The notes below the pieces were generated by a model. It had not been told where the DNA came from, made no database searches, and was given only the letters and a program-made list of their open reading frames with translations. Position numbers and translations under genes: made by a program. Positions 3,619 through 18,617 of a stretch of DNA of 24,476 nt are shown here, in pieces. Source of the DNA: a virus; IMG/VR virus record IMGVR_UViG_3300029908_000143, positions 1 through 24,476 of that record. One strand, given 5' to 3'. The first letter of the stretch is position 1. Every line of letters starts with the position of its first letter.

Positions 3619-4677
3619 TTACGATACAGCCGCTTCACTATTGATCATCTGATCATTCAAGCGAATTGGAATGCCGCGCCAGTTAAGAACAGGCTGACCG
3701 GCATACTCAGTAGGCCCAAGCAGAACATTCTTATTACGGATCGCCTGAATTTCCATCGCGGTCTTGATGGTACGATTGCTATACCAAGCAAACTTGTGAC
3801 CAATGTTGCCATTTGGATCATCAGTCTTCGTAATGCCAGAACCACGAGGAGTCGTGTGCGGCACAATGTTAACCGCAGCACTCATCAGAGAGAACAAGTC
3901 AGGTGGCGTGGTCGACAGTAACCCACCAGCAGTCGTCGTCGTATCAATGTTACAGATACGAACTTGGAACTGCCAATTTTCAATCGCAACGCCAAGCTTC
4001 CAAGTAAACACGTCTGTGTAGCCTTCATAGCGCAGACCGTTAACGTCATACAAAGGAACGATGTCGCCCTTATCTTCATGAACAAGACCAGAAGCCGAAC
4101 CCTTAGGAAACAGCAAGGACAAGCCGCCTTCGTCACTCCAACCATTCAGCCACAATGAAGCATTCGAGCTTAATGTACCGCCAGCGTTCAAAACATTAGC
4201 CGCAGTAGAAGAAGTAGCAGTTTCCAACGAGTTGTAGTACAGCGTTAGCCCAGTCGTCGAAGCAGGCATGGTCAATTCGTTCGCGTAGAAGATCGACGAA
4301 GAAACCTTCTGAGCCATACCTTGAATATGGGTCTTGGCATGCTGTAAGCGGAAGTTAGCAACTTCGCCGTTCAGTTCAGCTTCGTCCTTATCAACCATGC
4401 CGTAATCGCGCAAGATGCCGATAGAGAACTTTTCTTTTCCGAAAAGTGGCTTCGTCGCCGCAATACCTTGGTTGTTCTGCTTCCAGCTAGGCTGTGGCAA
4501 ACCAGTCAACAACGATACTTCATGCCCCATAGGCAAATTGCCAACCTTGGCAATAGCATCTTCGACAACTTGATTGCACTGCGCCATCAAGTTGACGATA
4601 TAGCCGATTTTGCCATCGGGCTGGGCCATCATTGCCCAATCATACAAATTTGGGGTCTGGTTAGCGAATAAAGCCAT
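3619..4677 (-). CDS. Major capsid protein, epsilon15 gp7-like
   Basis: This 352-residue protein has the hallmarks of the major capsid family of epsilon15/BPP-1-type phages. The N-terminus has 'LYDWAMMAQPDGKIGYIVNLMAQ', followed by 'VEDAIAKVGNLPMGHEVSLLTGLPQPSWKQNNQGI' and then 'MVDKDEAELNG..ANFRLQHAKTHIQGM'. In that family the same order occurs: '..DP.GKIA.IVE.L.QTNE.L.D....EGNLPTGH....RTGLP...WR..NQG' and 'VD..LAELNG....FR..EA...'. The protein is expected to adopt the HK97 fold and form the icosahedral shell with scaffold and cement proteins encoded on either side. The ATG is preceded by TAGGAGC. Length is normal for the family. Confidence 0.9.
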   Translation of the reverse strand: MALFANQTPNLYDWAMMAQPDGKIGYIVNLMAQCNQVVEDAIAKVGNLPMGHEVSLLTGLPQPSWKQNNQGIAATKPLFGKEKFSIGILRDYGMVDKDEAELNGEVANFRLQHAKTHIQGMAQKVSSSIFYANELTMPASTTGLTLYYNSLETATSSTAANVLNAGGTLSSNASLWLNGWSDEGGLSLLFPKGSASGLVHEDKGDIVPLYDVNGLRYEGYTDVFTWKLGVAIENWQFQVRICNIDTTTTAGGLLSTTPPDLFSLMSAAVNIVPHTTPRGSGITKTDDPNGNIGHKFAWYSNRTIKTAMEIQAIRNKNVLLGPTEYAGQPVLNWRGIPIRLNDQMINSEAAVS

Positions 4678-5663: not shown

Positions 5664-5855
5664 TCACTCCTCCTGAACAAACCTAGCGACAGCCTGACAG
5701 ACTGTTCGGACGCCTAGTTTATCTTTAGAGCTTCGGATGTAAATCTTTATCATCGACAGAGATAAATTCAGATTTCTCGCAACGTGCTTATATGTATCTC
5801 CCTGAGAAACCATTCTAAGGATTTCAATCTCACGCGCATTAAGCTGTTTGATCAT
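5664..5855 (-). CDS. Stand-alone LuxR/GerE-type HTH protein
   Basis: This 63-residue protein is almost entirely a LuxR-type (GerE) helix-turn-helix. It starts 'LNAREIEILRMVSQGDTYK', continues with 'VARNLNLSLSMIKIYIRSS' and ends 'KDKLGVRTVCQAVARFV'. The family pattern LT.RE.EVL..V..G.....IA..L..S...V..H...I..KLGV..R..A is clear. There is no receiver or ligand-binding domain, so it is probably a constitutive DNA-binding factor. It overlaps the Bbp19-like gene by 4 bases (ATGA) with AAGGA upstream, so it is co-translated with head genes, just before the gap preceding the scaffold gene. Its target is not visible from sequence. Confidence 0.85.
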   Translation of the reverse strand: MIKQLNAREIEILRMVSQGDTYKHVARNLNLSLSMIKIYIRSSKDKLGVRTVCQAVARFVQEE

Positions 5856-7108: not shown

Positions 7109-8932
7109 TCATCCGCCAGTCAACATCTGCAAAGCGTTCTGCCCCGCGCCGACCGTCGTCTGCGAAAGCGTCTGAGCAGCCTGTGCCGACTTATTCGCTG
7201 TGTCGGATGCTTGCTGTATCATTTCAGCCTTCTGTTGGTTCTCCATCTGCTGCGCGCGCGCAGCACGAACCTTCTTCACAAAGTCGGCGTCGTTAACAAT
7301 AGTCGGAGGAACACCAAGCATGTCGAAAGCTTCATCAATGAAGGTATCAACCGCCAACTTGTCCTTCGCGTCTGGGTAGACGGGAACAAGATTACCAATC
7401 AATGCCGCTGCACGCTCCATCGAGCCAAGCGCAGAAGCGCGTTGCGCAAGAACAAGTGTCGAGCAGAAGTCGAAACCAATAGCTATATTGTTTAAGCTCT
7501 TCGGCATCGGGTCGATCATATTCTTTCTCTTCATAATAGAGAAAATGCGCTTCAATTTAGGGCGTAGATTTTCAGTAATAAGATTCTCAACGACTGGTCC
7601 AAGAACCTGTAGAGCCTCTTGCCGCCTAGCATTGATTTCCGTCGCCGACCTCTGATCCCCCTGTAAATTAGAAATCGTCATGAAAATATCTTTGAAAAAA
7701 CCAGTCTCGATTCTCTTCTGTATCTTCTCGATATTAACCGCCAACGCATTCACATCTGGATTTACATTATAAATCGAACGCATGCCATTGTGTGCATCAA
7801 GACCAGGCATAAACGTAACGTGACCAGGTAATCCACTTGATGGCATATTTTTCAGCTTCTCGTCGGCAATCAACGGTGGATTCGCCATTTTCTCAATAGC
7901 TTCCGCCATGCGTCGCGTCATAACCTGAAGCTGCTTAACGTCAGGCATGACATCCATACCCTGAGAACGCCCATAGGCATCATTACCCTGTGTAGCCCAA
8001 CGTGACGCGCTGAAAGGCTGATCCCAGAAGCCGCGAACAGACAGGGGCTGTTTTCCAGCATCTGCATACATCCAGTAAACTTCACGCCAAGGAAATCCGC
8101 CGGGAAGTTTCCAATCCTTATTCGTCCCTACCGCATAGTTTGGCTCGATTGCGTGAGCGATAATATGCTCCGTCTGCAAGCCCGCCCCCTTCCCGCTCCA
8201 TAATTGCTGAATCTCTTGACTCACGTTATCAATACCGAAGAAATCAACCATCTGCGCCGTACTCATAAGAACCAGACGATACAGGCTCGTTACGCGATTA
8301 GACGCATCAACATCCAAATAATACTCTCCCACACAAGGAACGTGAACGCGGATGACGCTTTCATCATCTTCATAAATAATAGCGGGCGACGTTCCGTATG
8401 CCGATATATCCTCGCATTCCTGAACGAACTGATTATAAAAATTCGATATGCTCAAAACCCCATAAATACGATTCTCAGTTTCCTCAATCCACTTACGCGC
8501 ATCCGCATCAAGAGAAATACCTTGCATCAACGGAATGATCTTAAACCAAGGAGCAGAAGGCTTTGCAAGGTTGCTCGCCAATCCGCCCGCGCAATAACGC
8601 AGTGCGAGCGTGGCTGTAGGATCGACAATCGCGCTATTGATAGGGATGCCGCGCATCATAGAATTCGGCGTAGGCAACCCACCAGAACCCTGCGTGATAA
8701 ATAGAGAACGGCGCGGCGCAATATACCTAGCCACGTCATTCCAATTCGTACTCCACCACGTCTGTCTCCAAGCATAAAGTGACAATAGTTTGCCCGACAA
8801 ATGATCGCTCATCGACTTCCAGACAGCCTCTTCCATAAGTGGCTTGCTCTTACCAGAAGCCGTTGCCGCCTGTTCAGCTAGGAGTTTAGGCGAGGCCTTC
8901 TCATAATTGGCGATTTCATCTGCAACTGACAT
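7109..8932 (-). CDS. Portal protein (podovirus head-to-tail connector)
   Basis: This 607-residue protein matches the bacteriophage head-to-tail connecting protein family (PF12236). Signature segments are 'W...WNDVARYIAPRRSLF' (about 60-78) and 'DPTATLALRYCAGGLASNLAKPSAPWFKI' in the order D104 to I132 (family: 'D.T...A...LA.GL...L..P..PWF.L'). Further on come 'VGEYYLD.D..NRV..LYR' and a 'MTRRMAEAIEKMANPP' helix. It would form the ring-shaped portal through which DNA enters and leaves the capsid and on which the terminase docks. The ATG at 8932 is chosen over TTG and GTG codons upstream because GGTGG precedes it. It begins one base after the stop of the small upstream gene. Length is normal for the family. 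Confidence 0.92.
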   Translation of the reverse strand: MSVADEIANYEKASPKLLAEQAATASGKSKPLMEEAVWKSMSDHLSGKLLSLYAWRQTWWSTNWNDVARYIAPRRSLFITQGSGGLPTPNSMMRGIPINSAIVDPTATLALRYCAGGLASNLAKPSAPWFKIIPLMQGISLDADARKWIEETENRIYGVLSISNFYNQFVQECEDISAYGTSPAIIYEDDESVIRVHVPCVGEYYLDVDASNRVTSLYRLVLMSTAQMVDFFGIDNVSQEIQQLWSGKGAGLQTEHIIAHAIEPNYAVGTNKDWKLPGGFPWREVYWMYADAGKQPLSVRGFWDQPFSASRWATQGNDAYGRSQGMDVMPDVKQLQVMTRRMAEAIEKMANPPLIADEKLKNMPSSGLPGHVTFMPGLDAHNGMRSIYNVNPDVNALAVNIEKIQKRIETGFFKDIFMTISNLQGDQRSATEINARRQEALQVLGPVVENLITENLRPKLKRIFSIMKRKNMIDPMPKSLNNIAIGFDFCSTLVLAQRASALGSMERAAALIGNLVPVYPDAKDKLAVDTFIDEAFDMLGVPPTIVNDADFVKKVRAARAQQMENQQKAEMIQQASDTANKSAQAAQTLSQTTVGAGQNALQMLTGG

Positions 8933-12830: not shown

Positions 12831-13268
12831 TCAACCACAAATTAACTTGATGGCTTGAGGCGAGTCATCTTGATTCTCGATGTACTTCTTTACCATCTGC
12901 TCTGTCACCGCACCAACAGTGCAGCAGAAGTATCCTTGTGACCACAAGTGACTTCCCCAGTACCGCTTTTTCAGTTGTGGAAACTCTCGCTGTAGCCGAT
13001 ACGAGCTTTTACCCTTCAGATACTGCGCCATTTTCGCGGGGGAAAGGTGACTAGGCGCACTTATCAGAACGTGCACGTGATTCGACCTCACATTCCCGCT
13101 CACAACACTCATTTCATTCTCGCTGCATATCTGCCTCAGCAAGTCTCTCAGCCGTAATCCCACATTCCCTCTCAGAACCGCATAGCTGTACTTCGTTTTC
13201 CATACAAAGTGGTACTTCAGCTCCAGTACCGTATGGGCTCCTCGGTCATATCTATCTTTCCCAAACAT
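12831..13268 (-). mobile_element. tnpA: IS200/IS605-family Y1 transposase (TnpA)
   Basis: This 145-residue protein is complete and of normal length for an IS200-type transposase. It has the HUH motif H64-V-H66 ('NVRSNHVHVLIS') and the catalytic tyrosine Y129 in 'VTEQMVKKYIENQ'. The start 'LELKYHFVWKTKYSYAVL' and 'YWGSHLWSQGYFCCTVG' are also typical. Such enzymes cut and rejoin single-stranded DNA at hairpin-marked ends without terminal repeats or target duplication. No TnpB partner is present, so this is an IS200-like solo element. All key residues are intact, so it could be active. AGGGAG precedes the ATG. Confidence 0.92.
12849..12869 (-). repeat. Candidate right-end palindrome of the IS200-type element
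   Basis: GATGGCT and AGTCATC on the plus strand form a 7-base imperfect stem with a 7-base loop inside the 3' end of tnpA. IS200-type elements have imperfect palindromes near each end that TnpA binds. The exact cleavage site cannot be fixed here. The bases from 12772 to 12830 between TerS and tnpA hold no gene. Confidence 0.3.
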
Positions 13269-13354: not shown

Positions 13355-13469
13355 AAGGTTTATACCCGACCAAGTGGAAATGAAACTGCCTATTTTACAA
13401 TCGTTACGTTTCACACTGTGGAACTGATTCAACATAATAATCAAAACAAAACATGAACGAACACTTAAC

Positions 13470-13499
13470 AATTGTTCGCAAAGGCGTTTGCAAACAATT
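13470..13499. repeat. Inverted repeat, operator- or iteron-like
   Basis: AATTGTTCGCAAA (13470-13482) and TTTGCAAACAATT (13487-13499) match as an inverted pair at 12 of 13 positions around a 4-base centre. The same 13-mer recurs at 13706-13718. This is a probable binding site for a dimeric DNA-binding protein, or a cruciform-capable site. Confidence 0.7.
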
Positions 13500-13695
13500 A
13501 CCATTAATTATTCATCTTTACAATCAATGGGATAGTGGGTGTTTTGGGGGTATTTTTAATTGATTTCCGAATCTCAATATAAAATAAAATATAAAAGTGC
13601 CTTATAGTGGGGGGGAGAGAGAGTAAAGGGTATATTAAAAAAAATATATATTAAATAAGAATAGATACGATTTGTCCTTTGTTTAGTGGGCTTAG

Positions 13696-13718
13696 AATTG
13701 TTTACAATTGTTTGCAAA
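13696..13718. repeat. Third AATTGTTTGCAAA copy fused to a perfect palindrome
   Basis: AATTGTTTACAATT (13696-13709) is a perfect palindrome. It overlaps by four bases AATTGTTTGCAAA (13706-13718), which is identical to the minus-strand reading of the site at 13487-13499. Recurrence over 200 bases of noncoding DNA suggests a common binding protein. Confidence 0.7.
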
Positions 13719-13763
13719 GCGGATACCGACAATTAAAAAACATCGCGCACAATGCGTGGTCTA

Positions 13764-13790
13764 CCTAACCTAGCCAGCGGGGTTTTTTAT
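13764..13790 (+). terminator. Weak candidate intrinsic terminator
   Basis: AACCT and GGGGTT can form a 5-base stem around GCCAGC, followed directly by six T residues and ATTG. It would stop plus-strand transcription entering from the AT-rich region before the early promoter. The stem is short, so the call is tentative. Confidence 0.3.
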
Positions 13791-13833
13791 TGCCCCTATC
13801 CATCTGATACTATCTGATAGACATATTTTGTTG

Positions 13834-13862
13834 TTGACTTAAACCTATCCATTAGATATAGT
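13834..13862 (+). promoter_or_regulatory. Sigma70-like early promoter
   Basis: TTGACT (13834-13839) and TATAGT (13857-13862) are separated by exactly 17 bases and lie about 46 bases before the first early gene. This is the best plus-strand promoter in the window and probably drives the small early genes. Operator-like repeats overlap the -10 and lie upstream of the -35, implying repression or activation by a phage or host factor. Confidence 0.75.
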
Positions 13863-13878
13863 GTTTATATCGATGGAT
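13847..13878. promoter_or_regulatory. Operator-like inverted repeat over the early promoter
   Basis: ATCCATTAGATATA (13847-13860) and, inverted, TATATCGATGGAT (13866-13878) are mirror copies apart from one extra base. They cover the -10 and the transcription start. A direct copy, ATCCATCTGATA, sits at 13798-13809. A bound protein would block the promoter. Confidence 0.55.
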
Positions 13879-13907
13879 TAACCCTCACACAAACTGGAGT
13901 TACCGAA

Positions 13908-14036
13908 ATGAAAACCTACCCCACATATGACCGCCGCCCGGTTTTACGAAAAGAACGTATCACAACGATTGTGACGGTTGTGCTGATTATCGTCGGCATT
14001 GCTATCGGCGCGTATATTGATGCACTGCCTCTGTAA
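13908..14036 (+). CDS. Small single-pass membrane protein
   Basis: This 42-residue protein has a charged N-terminus (MKTYPTYDRRPVLRKER), one transmembrane helix ('ITTIVTVVLIIVGIAIGAY') and a short tail. The orientation by charge is N-in. The ATG has GGAG upstream (ACTGGAGTTACC). It is the first gene after the early promoter, so it is expected early in infection, where small membrane proteins often act in exclusion or host takeover. That role is inference; no family is recognised. Confidence 0.6.
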   Translation: MKTYPTYDRRPVLRKERITTIVTVVLIIVGIAIGAYIDALPL

Positions 14037-14054
14037 AACCCATAGGAGTCGCAC

Positions 14055-14231
14055 ATGACTACAAACAGAAAAGGAAACACCATGACCACCACCACCACAC
14101 AAACACAAGAAATCCTCGAAATCCTGAAAGACAAAGGATTCGATTTTATCGACGCTTGCGAAGCTGAAAGCTGGACGGCTGAAACGGATTTTCAGGAAGT
14201 CTTGCGCGAGCGCGTGAATGAACAAGACTAA
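14055..14231 (+). CDS. Small acidic early protein
   Basis: This 58-residue protein starts MTTNRKGNTMTTTTTQTQ and continues with an acidic helical region ('ILEILKDKGFDFIDACEAES' to 'ETDFQEVLRERVNEQD'). Two start codons are equally good: the ATG at 14055 has AGGAGTC upstream and the ATG at 14082 has AAAAGGAA, so two forms differing by nine residues may be made. Function is unknown. The gene ends 20 bases before the next start. Confidence 0.55.
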   Translation: MTTNRKGNTMTTTTTQTQEILEILKDKGFDFIDACEAESWTAETDFQEVLRERVNEQD

Positions 14232-14251
14232 AAGAAAACGATCCCTCTTTG

Positions 14252-14407
14252 ATGGAAAGTCTGGAACTTGCGAAAGAGTACGGATTTACTCTGGATAAGA
14301 TCAACTCGGAATTTCTGGCAACTATCCATTACCAAAACGCGCTGTCCGAAAAGATAGGCGGTGCCGTGGAAGTACTCGAGGGATATTTTGCCGATAAGTC
14401 CGAATAA
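14252..14407 (+). CDS. Small early protein
   Basis: This 51-residue helical, acidic protein begins MESLELAKEYGFTLDKINSE and ends 'GGAVEVLEGYFADKSE'. There is no Shine-Dalgarno before the ATG, so translation may depend on reinitiation from the upstream gene. The reading frame is bounded by neighbours with good spacing and has phage-like codon use. Its call is less sure than its neighbours'. Confidence 0.45.
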   Translation: MESLELAKEYGFTLDKINSEFLATIHYQNALSEKIGGAVEVLEGYFADKSE

Positions 14408-14432
14408 CCCACACACACGAAAGGAATCTCCC

Positions 14433-14774
14433 ATGATACACCCCACACTTACACAGGCGCACGACACCATAATCGACCTAATCGCCGTTCTCAAAATTGA
14501 GATTGCCGCCGATAGGGACGCAGGAATCCCAGACGACGAAAACAGTCATATTATCTTGCTAAAAAACGCCAATCGCACGTTAAAAAATATCTGCCACGAC
14601 ATAGACAATACTTTGTCGATTGTGTGGCGCGTGGATGACGTCAGGAAAATCAACCCCAGATTATCGCTCAAAAAATGCCGTCAAGTTCTCGAACGTGTCG
14701 AACGCGATTGGGACGCTAGCAACGGTGTAACTTGGGATACGCTAGAGGCGACGATAGAAGACCTAAACCGTTAA
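14433..14774 (+). CDS. Hypothetical early protein
   Basis: This 113-residue, mostly helical protein is not recognised. It begins MIHPTLTQAHDTIIDLIAVL, has an acidic loop ('DRDAGIPDDENSHI') and ends in charged helices with 'RDWDASNGVTWDTLEATIEDL'. The ATG at 14433 is chosen since AAAGGAAT is well spaced before it; the upstream ATG at 14361 reads through the previous gene's coding region. It belongs to the early plus-strand operon. Confidence 0.65.
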   Translation: MIHPTLTQAHDTIIDLIAVLKIEIAADRDAGIPDDENSHIILLKNANRTLKNICHDIDNTLSIVWRVDDVRKINPRLSLKKCRQVLERVERDWDASNGVTWDTLEATIEDLNR

Positions 14775-14799
14775 CTTGCAAACACACAGGAGTCGAGTC

Positions 14800-14934
14800 A
14801 TGAAAGAATCAGCACTAGAAAAAGCCTATCGGATATACGGCGGCGGGAGTCCGCAACATCGCCGGGCGCTGATAGCCTATGAACGGCGAGTCTATGGTTG
14901 TCTTGTGAGTGAATTAACAAGGGGGACAAAATGA
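14800..14934 (+). CDS. Small basic early protein
   Basis: This 44-residue protein, MKESALEKAYRIYGGGSPQH continuing to 'RRALIAYERRVYGCLVSELT', is basic and rich in Arg and Tyr. The ATG has AGGAGTC upstream, the same leader used by several early genes here. Its stop overlaps the start of the next gene (ATGA), which supports it as a real coupled gene. No family is recognised. Confidence 0.6.
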   Translation: MKESALEKAYRIYGGGSPQHRRALIAYERRVYGCLVSELTRGTK

Positions 14935-15155
14935 CCGACTTATCGCACCTAGAAGCACTCACTCATCGCCTTGGCCGCGAAACATGCCGCATGAACAATG
15001 CGAAAAATGAAAACGAACGGTCTTTCCGCGAGCGCGAAATTGCTTCATGCCGTAAGGAGATTGAGGCTGAATACAAGTTTTTGGGCATTAAACCTTTGAC
15101 GATAGAAGAAACTATGATGAGTGACGACGAATTACTTGCCGAACTTACAGCTTAA
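14931..15155 (+). CDS. Small early protein
   Basis: This 74-residue charged helical protein probably forms a coiled coil ('LGRETCRMNNAKNENERSFR' and on to 'REIASCRKEIEAEYKFLGI'). It ends in a short acidic segment ('SDDELLAELTA'). The ATG overlaps the previous stop by 4 bases and AAGGGGG lies upstream. It is unrecognised. Confidence 0.6.
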   Translation: MTDLSHLEALTHRLGRETCRMNNAKNENERSFREREIASCRKEIEAEYKFLGIKPLTIEETMMSDDELLAELTA

Positions 15156-15228
15156 CCCTAGCCCCCCCCGTGGCATGATGCAACGGGAACGAAAAACAAC
15201 GCATAAGCCCCTGTAATAGTGTCGACCG

Positions 15229-15249
15229 TGCCAGTGCGGATCACTGGCA
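15229..15249 (+). promoter_or_regulatory. Hairpin in the gap before the ANARLIAAAPELLEAL-type gene
   Basis: TGCCAGT and ACTGGCA form a perfect 7-base stem with a 7-base loop in the 119-base gap (15156-15274). No T-run follows, so it is not an intrinsic terminator. It could be a processing or operator site. A run of eight C residues lies at the start of the same gap. Confidence 0.4.
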
Positions 15250-15274
15250 ACCTACAAACAAATAGGAGTCTATT

Positions 15275-15601
15275 ATGACTACACAACACACACCCGCACC
15301 TTTTCTAGTAATAGCGAACAACGGAACGCATGGAACATACATAAAGTCGGCAATAACAGGCGAATCAGTTTGCGACCTATACGTCATGACCGAGTCTAAA
15401 AAACTGTCTCAATTCATGGAGAGCGAGCCATTAGATTTTGCTAACGCCGAAAGCAATGCCCGACTAATCGCCGCCGCGCCTGAATTGCTGGAAGCACTGA
15501 TTGAACTTGACCAATGGGCGCAGGCGCAGCAACAGGAGGAATATCCGCAGGGCACCTTCGCGATTGTCCAAGAGGCTATCAACAAAGCAAGGGGAGTCTA
15601 G
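15275..15601 (+). CDS. Phage protein with 'ARLIAAAPELLEAL' motif
   Basis: This 108-residue protein carries 'DFANAESNARLIAAAPELLEALIELD', a motif I know from very many phage and prophage proteins of unknown function. The N-terminal part is a small beta domain ('PFLVIANNGTHGTYIKSAIT', then 'ESVCDLYV'), and the motif helix follows near residues 54-78. It is usually found among small early or accessory genes, as here. The ATG has AGGAGTC before it. The family is widespread and its biochemical role is not known to me. Confidence 0.8.
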   Translation: MTTQHTPAPFLVIANNGTHGTYIKSAITGESVCDLYVMTESKKLSQFMESEPLDFANAESNARLIAAAPELLEALIELDQWAQAQQQEEYPQGTFAIVQEAINKARGV

Positions 15602-15603
15602 TC

Positions 15604-15795
15604 ATGCCTAAATATAAAATATCGAAAACCGTTACCACGTTTTACCGCCTAGAAATTGAGGCTGAAGATGAGGCCAAAGCAGTAGCCCTAGCGGAAGTTC
15701 GGGATGTTCGGGATGATTGGGATGCGGCGGAATGGGTGAAAATAGGAAGTGAATCGTTCATCCAAGGGGAGGGCGGGGTGCCCCCTGCGGCATAG
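15604..15795 (+). CDS. Small early protein, DpnD/PcfM-like pattern
   Basis: This 63-residue protein starts MPKYKISKTVTTFYRLEIEA, with 'EDEAKAVALAEVRDV' next. The layout 'Y.I.....T.....IEAEDE.EA...A' is that of small proteins of the DpnD/PcfM type, whose function is unclear. The ATG at 15604 follows the previous stop by 2 bases and has GGGGAGTC upstream; longer starts would be shadows of the previous gene. Part of the operon of small early genes. Confidence 0.6.
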   Translation: MPKYKISKTVTTFYRLEIEAEDEAKAVALAEVRDVRDDWDAAEWVKIGSESFIQGEGGVPPAA

Positions 15796-15863
15796 TGCGC
15801 CGAATTGTTTGGAATAGAACAAAGGCGCGGATACGTTCAACTATTTTTGAAAGGCAACTAATC

Positions 15864-16118
15864 ATGATTAGCTGTGCAGCAACAAGCCGACTAATATGCG
15901 GTGCTATCCTATGCTGTTTCTCATTCTGGGGAGGCATGCAGATATGCGAAGCCCCGAAAATAATCGAGCGAACGGAATTCGTCTATATCACCCAGCCTAT
16001 AGACCTCCCGACCAAAGCCGCAAAATATCGCGGGGCGGAGGCAAACATATTCGCCGCCGCTCTTCCGGCAAGCGTTTTGATAGCTTCGGGAGGCAAGGGG
16101 AAACTGCGCCACCCCTAA
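15864..16118 (+). CDS. Small membrane-anchored protein
   Basis: This 84-residue protein begins MISCAATSRLICGAILCCFS, followed by 'FWGGMQICEAPK', a hydrophobic N-terminal segment that is either a signal peptide or a single anchor. The rest ('IIERTEFVYITQPIDLPTKA' onward) is expected outside the cytoplasm. The ATG at 15864 is chosen because GAAAGG lies before it; the GTG at 15795 gives a basic, non-hydrophobic extension. Function is unknown. Its place next to the regulator gene is typical of superinfection-exclusion or lysis accessory genes, but no signature supports either. Confidence 0.5.
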   Translation: MISCAATSRLICGAILCCFSFWGGMQICEAPKIIERTEFVYITQPIDLPTKAAKYRGAEANIFAAALPASVLIASGGKGKLRHP

Positions 16119-16145
16119 AATCACGCCCAGCAAAAGGTTAAAGCC

Positions 16146-16337
16146 ATGACGCCAGAAAAAATCAAAGAACTTCGCAAGTCACTAATGGAGACTCAAAATC
16201 AATTTGGCTCACGTCTTGGTATTGGCTGGCTCGCTGTTCATAGATTGGAGAAAGGAACAACGCAGGCTCGAGGTGCGGTGTTGAAGATTTTAGAAAAAAC
16301 GCAAAATGATTTGACTAAAGTCAAGGCATCAAAGTAA
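16146..16337 (+). CDS. Cro/Xre-like HTH regulator
   Basis: This 63-residue protein has one helix-turn-helix. It begins MTPEKIKELRKSLMETQNQF, and the HTH core is 'TQNQFGSRLGIGWLAVHRLEKG', the usual Xre pattern (TQ..FA..LGIS...V...E.G). It ends in a Lys-rich tail. It is small like lambda Cro and probably binds operators as a dimer. Good candidates in the window are the ATCCAT-type repeats around the early promoter or the AATTGTTTGCAAA dyads. It lies directly before the structured leader of the primase gene. AAAGG precedes the ATG. Confidence 0.8.
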   Translation: MTPEKIKELRKSLMETQNQFGSRLGIGWLAVHRLEKGTTQARGAVLKILEKTQNDLTKVKASK

Positions 16338-16430: not shown

Positions 16431-18617
16431 ATGCAGCTCAAAACATGGAATACAAAGAATAAGTTTCTGTCTTTTTGGGATAGCGCAACAACCAATCTTG
16501 TTTCTCAACATCCCTATATCAAGCGCAAAAATGTAAAGCCTTATGGGGTTCGCGTCATCAATGGCGAATTGGTTATACCAATCTATGACACAACCCAAAA
16601 AATAGTTGGCATCCAGACAATCAAAGAGAACGGCGAAAAGAAATTCGCTTTTGAAAGCAAGGTTGAGGGCAACTTTTTTGTTTTTAATGATAATTCAGAT
16701 AAACAAATCATTTATATTGCCGAGGGGTTCGCAACATGCGCGACCATAGCCGAAATAACGGGCTGCACCGTTGTTTGCGCGTTTAGCGCGGGAAACCTCA
16801 CAAAGGTTGCCAAGAACATACGCGATAGATTTAAGGGCGAGATCATTATCGCTGCGGATAATAAAAGCGCGGGAGAGATAAGCCTTGCCAATAAAGCAGC
16901 AAGAGAATGTGGTGGCTTTGTGGTTTTGCCAGCCGAAGGGCAGGATTTTAATGATATGGCAAATTCTGGAACCGATATTTTGCCCAATCTTTCCGAATAC
17001 AAAAAGCCAACCGAAATTGTGGAAGAAGTTAAGGTTTATAAGGATTACTCAAATTATGACGAAGATTTTGACGAAGAAACCATTAAGGATATGCTGTCTT
17101 ATGTCTCGCCGGACATTGGATACCACGAATGGATAGAGATTGGCATGTCCCTGAAGGCTGGTGGGGCTTCCCTGCGCGTTTGGGACGATTGGAGCAGCAA
17201 GGGTGGCTCTTATAAGAAAAACGACTGTGCGAGCCACTGGGGAAGCTTTAAGGGCAATGGCATAACAATAGGCACGCTGTGCCACCATGCCAAATTGAGC
17301 GGGTGGGAGAGAAAATACGAAAATCAGCCTGTTGTTGAGAAAAAATCAACTCTTGATATTGCTTCGATCATTGGCGGGTTTAGCAAGAAAAACATAAAAA
17401 AGGACGCCCCGATAGAATTTGACGGTCTTATCGGCGATACGGTCAAATGGATTGTTTCAACTGGCACATACAAACAACCGATGCTTGCTACCCTTAATGT
17501 GTTGGCGGCTCTGGGGGCTGTTTTTGGGCGCAAATACGCCAGCAAGATAAACACGCGCACAAATCTCTATATGGTTGGGGTTGCTGCTTCTGGCGGCGGA
17601 AAAGACCATTCCCGCCGCTGTATAGCCAATCTTATGACAGAAGCAGGGCTGTCGAACTTTCTAGGGGATAACGGGGTACGGTCTGATTCTGGTATTGTAA
17701 AATCCATTAGCGCACAAGCAAGCCAAGTAATGATGATTGATGAATTCGGCATCTTCTTGAAGGCGTTGAAAGACCAAAAAAGCGCGGGGCATATTAAGGC
17801 GGTTAGCAGCCTATTGTTGCAGCTCTATTCTTGTTCATCATCCATTTACAAACACGGCACATATGCCACGGATAAAATGGAATCCATGATTTTGCATTAT
17901 CCAAATCTTTGCATATACGGCACGACGACAGAAGAAATGTATGCTGGGGCTATATCAAAAGAAGGCATCAAGAGTGGGGAACTCAACAGATTTATTGTGC
18001 TGTTTGGCGACGACAATGCCGAACCTTGCCATAATATAGAGCAGGGCGAAGCCCCCGCCTTACTTGTCGAGGCATGGAAAGCATTTAATACAAATCCAAC
18101 TGGCGACAGCCTTGGTGTATCCAATGATGCGAAGATAGCAGTTAAGCCCTTTATAGTTGGTTGGGGGGATTGCTGGGATGATATTTGCGCCCTGCTGGAT
18201 TATCAACATTCAAAACGGAATGAAGAAAACTCCGCTCTATGGGTTCGCTATCGTGAAAATATTATAAAAATTGCTATGATATACGCGCTATCGGAATTCA
18301 AATTTGAATTAGACAAGAAACACATAGAGACTGCAAAATACTATGTAGAGGCATCCGTAAAATATATGGATAAACTGGCTAAGACGCACATGGCTGAGAA
18401 CCAGTGGGAAGAACTGTATAATGAATTCATCCATCTTTTAGAAAAGAATGATGGGGAGATGCGTAAGGTAGACTTATTGAAGGCGATGAAAAAGGTCAAA
18501 AGAAGAGATGTCGCGGAGATGCTCGAGGGGATGAAGGATTCCGGAACCATCTCAATAGAGGGTAGGGTTTCTAACGAAAAGGCAGGGAGGCCTACCGTCT
18601 ATGTCAAACTTATGTAA
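16431..18617 (+). CDS. Toprim primase / helicase fusion protein
   Basis: This 728-residue protein has three regions. Residues 20-175 match the Toprim_3 type of phage primase, with 'HPYIKRKNV', 'ELVIPIYD', 'IYIAEGFATCATI' (E98) and 'IIIAADNKSAG' (D143, but K145 where the DxD motif expects Asp). Residues 215-292 match PriCT-2 ('YHEWIEIGMSLKAGG' to 'W..W'). Residues 330-560 are a DUF3987-like helicase or ATPase with Walker A 'GVAASGGGKDHS' (383-394) and Walker B 'VMMIDEFG' (433-440). The last 60 residues look like a winged helix. It would prime and unwind phage DNA at the fork. The ATG has only a weak GGTG upstream. It is the first replication gene after the structured leader. Confidence 0.85.
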   Translation: MQLKTWNTKNKFLSFWDSATTNLVSQHPYIKRKNVKPYGVRVINGELVIPIYDTTQKIVGIQTIKENGEKKFAFESKVEGNFFVFNDNSDKQIIYIAEGFATCATIAEITGCTVVCAFSAGNLTKVAKNIRDRFKGEIIIAADNKSAGEISLANKAARECGGFVVLPAEGQDFNDMANSGTDILPNLSEYKKPTEIVEEVKVYKDYSNYDEDFDEETIKDMLSYVSPDIGYHEWIEIGMSLKAGGASLRVWDDWSSKGGSYKKNDCASHWGSFKGNGITIGTLCHHAKLSGWERKYENQPVVEKKSTLDIASIIGGFSKKNIKKDAPIEFDGLIGDTVKWIVSTGTYKQPMLATLNVLAALGAVFGRKYASKINTRTNLYMVGVAASGGGKDHSRRCIANLMTEAGLSNFLGDNGVRSDSGIVKSISAQASQVMMIDEFGIFLKALKDQKSAGHIKAVSSLLLQLYSCSSSIYKHGTYATDKMESMILHYPNLCIYGTTTEEMYAGAISKEGIKSGELNRFIVLFGDDNAEPCHNIEQGEAPALLVEAWKAFNTNPTGDSLGVSNDAKIAVKPFIVGWGDCWDDICALLDYQHSKRNEENSALWVRYRENIIKIAMIYALSEFKFELDKKHIETAKYYVEASVKYMDKLAKTHMAENQWEELYNEFIHLLEKNDGEMRKVDLLKAMKKVKRRDVAEMLEGMKDSGTISIEGRVSNEKAGRPTVYVKLM

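Follow-up and report, generated by a model that had tools for sequence, protein, structure and literature searches.

The window, by which we mean the whole stretch of 24,476 bases that was analysed, encodes structural and packaging proteins on its minus strand (1-12.8 kb) and replication proteins on its plus strand (13.9-24 kb). The repeats studied here lie where transcription diverges, with structural and packaging genes leftward and replication genes rightward, as the original prediction had placed them (table 1). That prediction described three copies of the 13-mer AATTGTTTGCAAA at 13470-13718, and we retrieved these and no further sites with up to one mismatch in the 24,476 bases. Only 0.21 such sites are expected, and none of 100 shuffles reached three. 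Equal numbers of the 13-mer elsewhere had been named as an argument against a dedicated role; the window holds no comparable copies outside this region. The first two copies do form a tight dyad, i.e. an inverted pair with a 4-nt centre, and this pair is predicted to fold, as a single strand, into a strong hairpin (minus strand, z -3.7). The supposed perfect palindrome AATTGTTTACAATT (13696-13709), on the other hand, has AATTGTAAACAATT as its reverse complement. What remains is an inverted repeat with 6-bp arms around a TT centre, which makes better sense as a piece of the tandem 10-bp repeat AATTGTTTAC-AATTGTTTGC.

The intervening DNA is AT-rich, as had been described, and duplex stability over 100 bp is lowest in the window at 13569-13668. 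The unusual G-runs are there too: the seven G at 13609-13615 are the longest G run in the window. The longest run of either G or C is one of eight C, at 15162-15169. A switch in GC skew, which the original prediction proposed to look for, is present: the skew is -0.163 on the left side (12 kb) and +0.065 on the right side (11 kb), and the direction of coding switches at the same place. The cumulative minimum forms a plateau at about 13.0-15.5 kb. Skew alone is no proof of replication, because the direction of transcription changes there as well. Two features had been overlooked, a conserved GTCCTTTGTTTAnnGGGnTTAG block at 13674-13695 with a third phased site at 13679, and the gene of an IS200-type transposase.

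Table 1. Features of the divergent region and of the adjoining genes, with positions in the window. L005 is the divergent relative described in the text.
Feature	Position	Strand	Remarks
IS200/IS605-type transposase gene	12831-13268	-	Y1_Tnp E 3e-42; outside the putative origin
AATTGTTTGCAAA, first copy	13470-13482	+	one mismatch
AATTGTTTGCAAA, second copy	13487-13499	-	exact
AATTGTTTGCAAA, third copy	13706-13718	+	exact
Left inverted pair AATTGTTCGCAAA GGCG TTTGCAAACAATT	13470-13499		found in the window, without a counterpart in L005
Probable left edge of the conserved region, TTACCATTAATTATTCATCTTT	13498-13519	+	collinear with TTACAATTAATTATTTAGCTTT in L005
Core element, putative origin	13575-13721	+	G/purine run, AT-rich stretch, GTCCTTTGTTTA block, three phased sites
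G/purine run GGGGGGGAGAGAGAG	13609-13623	+	GGGGGAGGGAGAACGGGGG at the equivalent position in L005
AT-rich stretch, putative duplex-unwinding element	13626-13685		least stable 60 bp in the window
Invariant GTCCTTTGTTTA	13674-13686	+	12/12 identical in L005
First phased site TTGTTTAG	13679-13686		within the GTCCTTTGTTTA block
Tandem 10-bp repeat AATTGTTTAC-AATTGTTTGC-AAA	13696-13718	+	AATTGTTTGC-AATTGATTGC-AAA in L005
Second phased site TTGTTTAC	13698-13705	+	inside the tandem 10-bp repeat
Third phased site TTGTTTGC	13708-13715	+	inside the tandem 10-bp repeat
ATCTGATAGACATAT, weakly supported operator candidate	13812-13826	+	just upstream of the early promoter
Sigma-70-like early promoter TTGACT-17-TATAGT	13834-13862	+	10/12 consensus matches
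Small XRE-like HTH protein, candidate regulator	16146-16337	+	HTH_3 E 7e-4, below the Pfam cut-off
Primase-helicase (TOPRIM + PriCT-2 + DUF3987), candidate initiator	16431-18617	+	

The transposase gene separates the repeats from the small terminase gene. The left end of its element, judged against two genomic copies (L097, L099), is at about 13365-13380. We found no right end before terS and the transposase is devoid of the C-terminal motif of its relatives, so that the element looks truncated. We rejected the repeats as an end of an IS200/IS605 element, since they start at 13470, about 90 bp outside the left end.

We then relied on comparison with a relative. An IMG/VR search with the primase identified L005, part of a 52,141-bp contig, whose primase is 62% identical to that of the window. 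Positions 13587-13721 of the window align with 7069-7207 of L005 at 74.5% identity over 141 bp (BLASTN). The Smith-Waterman score of the element is 94, against a mean of 21.8 (sd 2.8, maximum 35) in 1000 dinucleotide shuffles. The core is present in single copy in the window and in the 52-kb genome of the relative, and we rejected on this basis a multi-copy set of promoters for a phage RNA polymerase. Further left, the match between TTACCATTAATTATTCATCTTT and TTACAATTAATTATTTAGCTTT is weaker (its score was reached by 11 of 1000 shuffles). With this match, homology reaches leftward up to the inverted pair at 13470-13499, whose right edge TTACCATTAATTATTCATCTTT directly adjoins. The original prediction held that loss of the sites in relatives with the same gene order would count against it: the right-hand cluster is kept in L005, but the left inverted pair is lost.

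Within the element, GTCCTTTGTTTA has no second exact copy in the window or in the L005 genome, and is followed by GGG, by TTAG and then by the tandem 10-bp repeat. This arrangement sets three TTGTTTRC-like sites at 0/+19/+29 (spacings of 19 and 10 bp), a triplet which, with one mismatch allowed per site, occurs once per genome and at the same place in the window and in L005. In the L005 genome, the 100 bp of lowest stability (28713-28812) abut the element (28575-28713), and the cumulative GC-skew minimum falls at the element in both phages, although such skew and low stability are likewise expected of any divergent promoter region.

The element itself is known from two genomes, and L005 is the sole divergent relative carrying it; three near-identical fragments (L003, L006 and L019) belong to the same virus as the window. 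The patterns TCCTTTGTTTAnnGGGnTTAG, TTTGTTTAnnGGGnTTAGAA, GTTTnCAATTGnTTGCAAA and the triplet of phased sites were sought in viral contigs; beyond this virus and L005 they turned up in unrelated contexts only, including coding DNA of L007/L010/L011 and of L221. Among phage and plasmid records there was no similar DNA for the window and chance-level matches only for L005. One 62.6-kb contig has two copies of GTTTGCAATTGATTGCAAAAC (L104:6371-6389 and L124:63-81), each directly after a TA/TAG triplet; they could represent an operator or terminator dispersed in an unrelated phage.

The genes that share the history of this DNA are those of replication. Between the window and L005, identity is 62% for the primase, 71% for AAA_24, 73% for DUF669, 68% for the exonuclease, 57% for the helicase and 68% for the nuclease. 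Packaging and structural proteins have diverged much further (TerS 29%, TerL 39% over 129 aa only, portal 22%), and most structural genes of the window have no match in L005. We regard the element as belonging in cis to the replication module, because it is conserved with the replication genes while the packaging genes diverged. The element and the gene of the XRE-like protein are 2425 bp apart in the window and 2453 bp apart in L005, and the small early ORFs tested in this interval (13909-16141) have no detectable homologue in the relative. The early promoter has a counterpart in L005 (TTGACA-16-TATATT at 7269-7296), and ATCTGATAGACATAT matches there at 14 of 15 positions, a score reached by 26 of 1000 shuffles.

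The original prediction named two proteins as possible binders. One of them, the XRE-like protein, has a homologue in L005: both proteins belong to PHROG 2104, both are encoded just upstream of the primase, and they are 38% identical over 50 aa. L005 encodes no homologue of the other, a LuxR-type protein (5664-5855). We consider a third protein that had gone unnamed, the primase-helicase, to be a likelier binder than either. Its Toprim_3 and PriCT_2 domains score above the Pfam cut-off and DUF3987 below it. Residues 320-728 are predicted to form an MCM-like AAA+ domain (AF2 model, pLDDT 82.5, 21-sequence alignment). The listed Foldseek matches of this model in the PDB are all of MCM type (best E 1.5e-6), the fit being loose (TM about 0.4, rmsd mostly above 6 A). 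Searched by sequence, the primase gave no meaningful match among solved structures and none in genome contigs. The C-terminus of the model has the order helix-strand-helix-helix-strand-strand, which we read here as a winged helix, a putative DNA-binding domain. By this model, the replication module encodes an MCM-like AAA+ helicase with a putative C-terminal DNA-binding domain.

The best explanation of these data, to which we assign a probability of roughly two in three, is that 13498-13721 (core 13575-13721) is the replication origin of the phage and that its sites would be bound by an initiator, probably the primase-helicase. The arguments for it are the occurrence of the sites nowhere else, the conservation of the element in a relative, its position, its low stability, the switch in skew, the gene content and the predicted MCM-like fold. 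Easily melted AT-rich DNA beside the repeats, a mark of iteron origins, is present in the window and abuts the element in L005. In the mechanism that we infer, from origin activity and binding protein to loading step, order of events and bidirectionality, the initiator would bind the three phased TTGTTTRC-like sites (13679, 13698 and 13708), perhaps assisted in this phage by the extra inverted pair (13470-13499). This initiator would most likely be the TOPRIM-PriCT-2 primase that the phage itself encodes, which is fused to an MCM-like AAA+ helicase and would bind via its C-terminal winged helix. Binding would open the adjacent AT-rich stretch (13626-13685), the helicase would load, the same polypeptide would prime synthesis, and forks would depart both ways, leftward beneath the late and rightward beneath the divergent early transcription unit. 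Several points count against an origin: L005 is the only divergent relative with the element, the left inverted pair is not conserved, and three near-sites are few for an iteron origin. We found no DnaA boxes (TTWTNCACA, up to one mismatch) at 13370-13920 or at 28300-28850 of the L005 genome, and no clear signal of IHF-like sites.

The original prediction left the choice between an origin and an operator, and we favour the origin, the right-hand repeats being part of a 147-bp non-coding element kept with the replication genes. It is rather unlikely that the sites are instead an operator, at which the XRE-like protein would control the divergent early and late units and the AT stretch would be a promoter region. 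The location between these units, the operator-like inverted pair at 13470-13499, the clean dyad TTTGCAATtgATTGCAAA in L005 and the presence there of an XRE-like protein of the same PHROG at the same place are all consistent with this role. Yet the protein is only 34-38% conserved against 74.5% for the DNA, and this conservation includes the G run and the AT stretch, which are not operator-like. Moreover, there are no promoter-like sites inside 13440-13830 of the window, and the early promoter, accompanied by a conserved 15-mer, is about 115 bp to the right. A direct 10-bp phasing is also unusual for an XRE dimer, which we counted against an operator. It is important to highlight that the roles of origin and operator may overlap. 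An origin primed by RNA, in which a transcript over the G/purine run would form a stable priming R-loop and the 13-mers would only modulate the process, seems improbable to us. RNA-based prophage origins do exist (PMC7157519), the G/purine run beside AT-rich DNA is kept in L005, and a weak promoter-like site at 13410-13438 is directed into this run. This site is nevertheless outside the conserved region, the phage has its own primase, and the folding of the conserved part as RNA is unremarkable (z from -1.6 to +0.6 on both strands of both phages). The window also lacks any Rfam match, and a structured RNA found no support.

Packaging sites often adjoin the small terminase gene, and the element does so, which raises the question of whether the element is a cos or pac site read by the small terminase subunit encoded just leftward. 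We find this very improbable, mainly because the terminases diverged (TerS 29%; TerL 39% over 129 aa) while the DNA was conserved. In addition, the IS200-type gene separates the site from terS in the window, and published relatives have an analogous gap beside the primase, with other genes between this gap and the terminase genes in RHph_TM3_3_14B and Yong-M3-232. Finally, an AT-rich region with an adjoining IS remnant could gather copies of an AT-rich word by chance or hold the end of an IS200-type element, an account that is hardly credible overall: three copies are seen, all here, the right-hand cluster is kept in a relative without the IS, and the left end of the IS is some 90 bp off. It is refuted for the right-hand cluster, and still possible for the left inverted pair.

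The origin that we propose resembles known systems in its design. The helicase Cch2 of SCCmec, for which a comparison with MCM has been made, uses its C-terminal domain to bind a putative intergenic origin at three short iterons (PMC7581432). This origin and those of SaPI Rep proteins (PMC7581432) are, like the element in the window, intergenic, with few short direct repeats and a primase in the same module. The Cch2 initiator is a helicase that binds the repeats via its C-terminal domain, and we propose its counterpart in the window by analogy. The Cch2 origin lies directly downstream of the helicase gene, whereas the element in the window is about 2.7 kb upstream of a fused primase-helicase, at the divergence of early and late genes. 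The repeats are AAGTG in the Cch2 system and TTGTTTRC in the window; hence, we liken the systems by design and not by sequence homology. In the satellite PLE of V. cholerae, a non-coding iteron region is required for replication (PMC7145576). It is similarly part of a phage-related element, but its initiator is a RepA_N protein, of which we recognised none in the window. The Streptococcus thermophilus phage Sfi21 has, according to a citation in PMC6356513, a 302-bp non-coding origin that gives phage-encoded resistance. As far as that account goes, this too is one non-coding element with the character of an origin, belonging to a phage replication module; it differs in host group and in sequence, and its action as an origin was demonstrated, whereas that of the window is putative.

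We fetched stretches of 9-20 kb around the primases of seven published phages with the same module, namely H40/1, C7, H188, 1.030.O, 1.005.O, Yong-M3-232 and RHph_TM3_3_14B. In each of them, a non-coding gap near the primase (254-614 bp) held the least stable 100 bp of the stretch, an agreement which is in part expected of any divergent promoter region, the gap being the obvious long non-coding one. Several of these gaps have iterons. Those of Vibrio phages H188, 1.030.O and 1.005.O and of Pseudoalteromonas phages C7 and H40/1 are similar to each other (z 9-41, near-identical pairs aside), and carry no origin annotation in their records. These five phages have the replication genes found here (primase, AAA NTPase, DUF669-type, Cas4-like nuclease and helicase), and their gaps, as in the window, are beside the primase, hold the locally least stable DNA and present a purine block followed by an AT stretch. 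They differ in that significant similarity to the element in the window is found in H40/1 alone, the only one of the seven above z 3. This similarity is a short purine-plus-AT block with z 4.5, a value that no shuffle reached. For homology between the element and those of other phages, the sequence comparisons are suggestive only.

Two metagenomic relatives present plain iterons. L143 (IMGVR_UViG_3300038550_000080), whose exonuclease is 45% and primase 28% identical to those of the window, has at 4043-4297 at least 12 TGTTTAC iterons in two orientations on both sides of an AT core, an array that by its sequence looks textbook-like for an iteron origin. It shares with the window these iterons, the AT core and the vicinity of the primase gene, but has at least 12 iterons instead of three, and the array is at the 3' end of that gene. 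The other relative, with the same exonuclease and helicase as the window, has an 11.5-copy tandem array of the AT-rich 10-bp repeat TACAATTTGT (L151:8930-9044), which is a candidate origin. In Synechococcus phage Ssp-JY40 (L214:19305-20013), GTCGGTTAG iterons, a G-rich purine tract and an AT core lie beside a gene that matches the primase. This region holds CTTTGTTTTAGAGGGGTT on the minus strand, which resembles the conserved block of the window.

An origin would be a feature of an ordinary kind, but those of this family appear to be unmapped so far: we found no mapped origin for phages with this replication module in the open-access literature. We tentatively suggest, in a generalization that may well prove wrong, that phages with a TOPRIM/PriCT-2-type primase fused to an MCM-like helicase, together with AAA_24, a DUF669-type protein, a Cas4-like nuclease and a helicase, share one design of origin. 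This would be a single non-coding gap near the primase, in which short phased iterons and a purine/G run accompany the DNA of lowest stability in the genome. The fused primase-helicase would recognise this origin via its C-terminal winged helix. The prediction of a 150-bp origin with three named sites and a named candidate initiator makes the proposal directly testable. Several of the seven published phages are cultured, and the rule of the least stable gap can be tested without this metagenomic virus. If the shared design is true, one polypeptide would be the initiator, the helicase and the primase of these phages.
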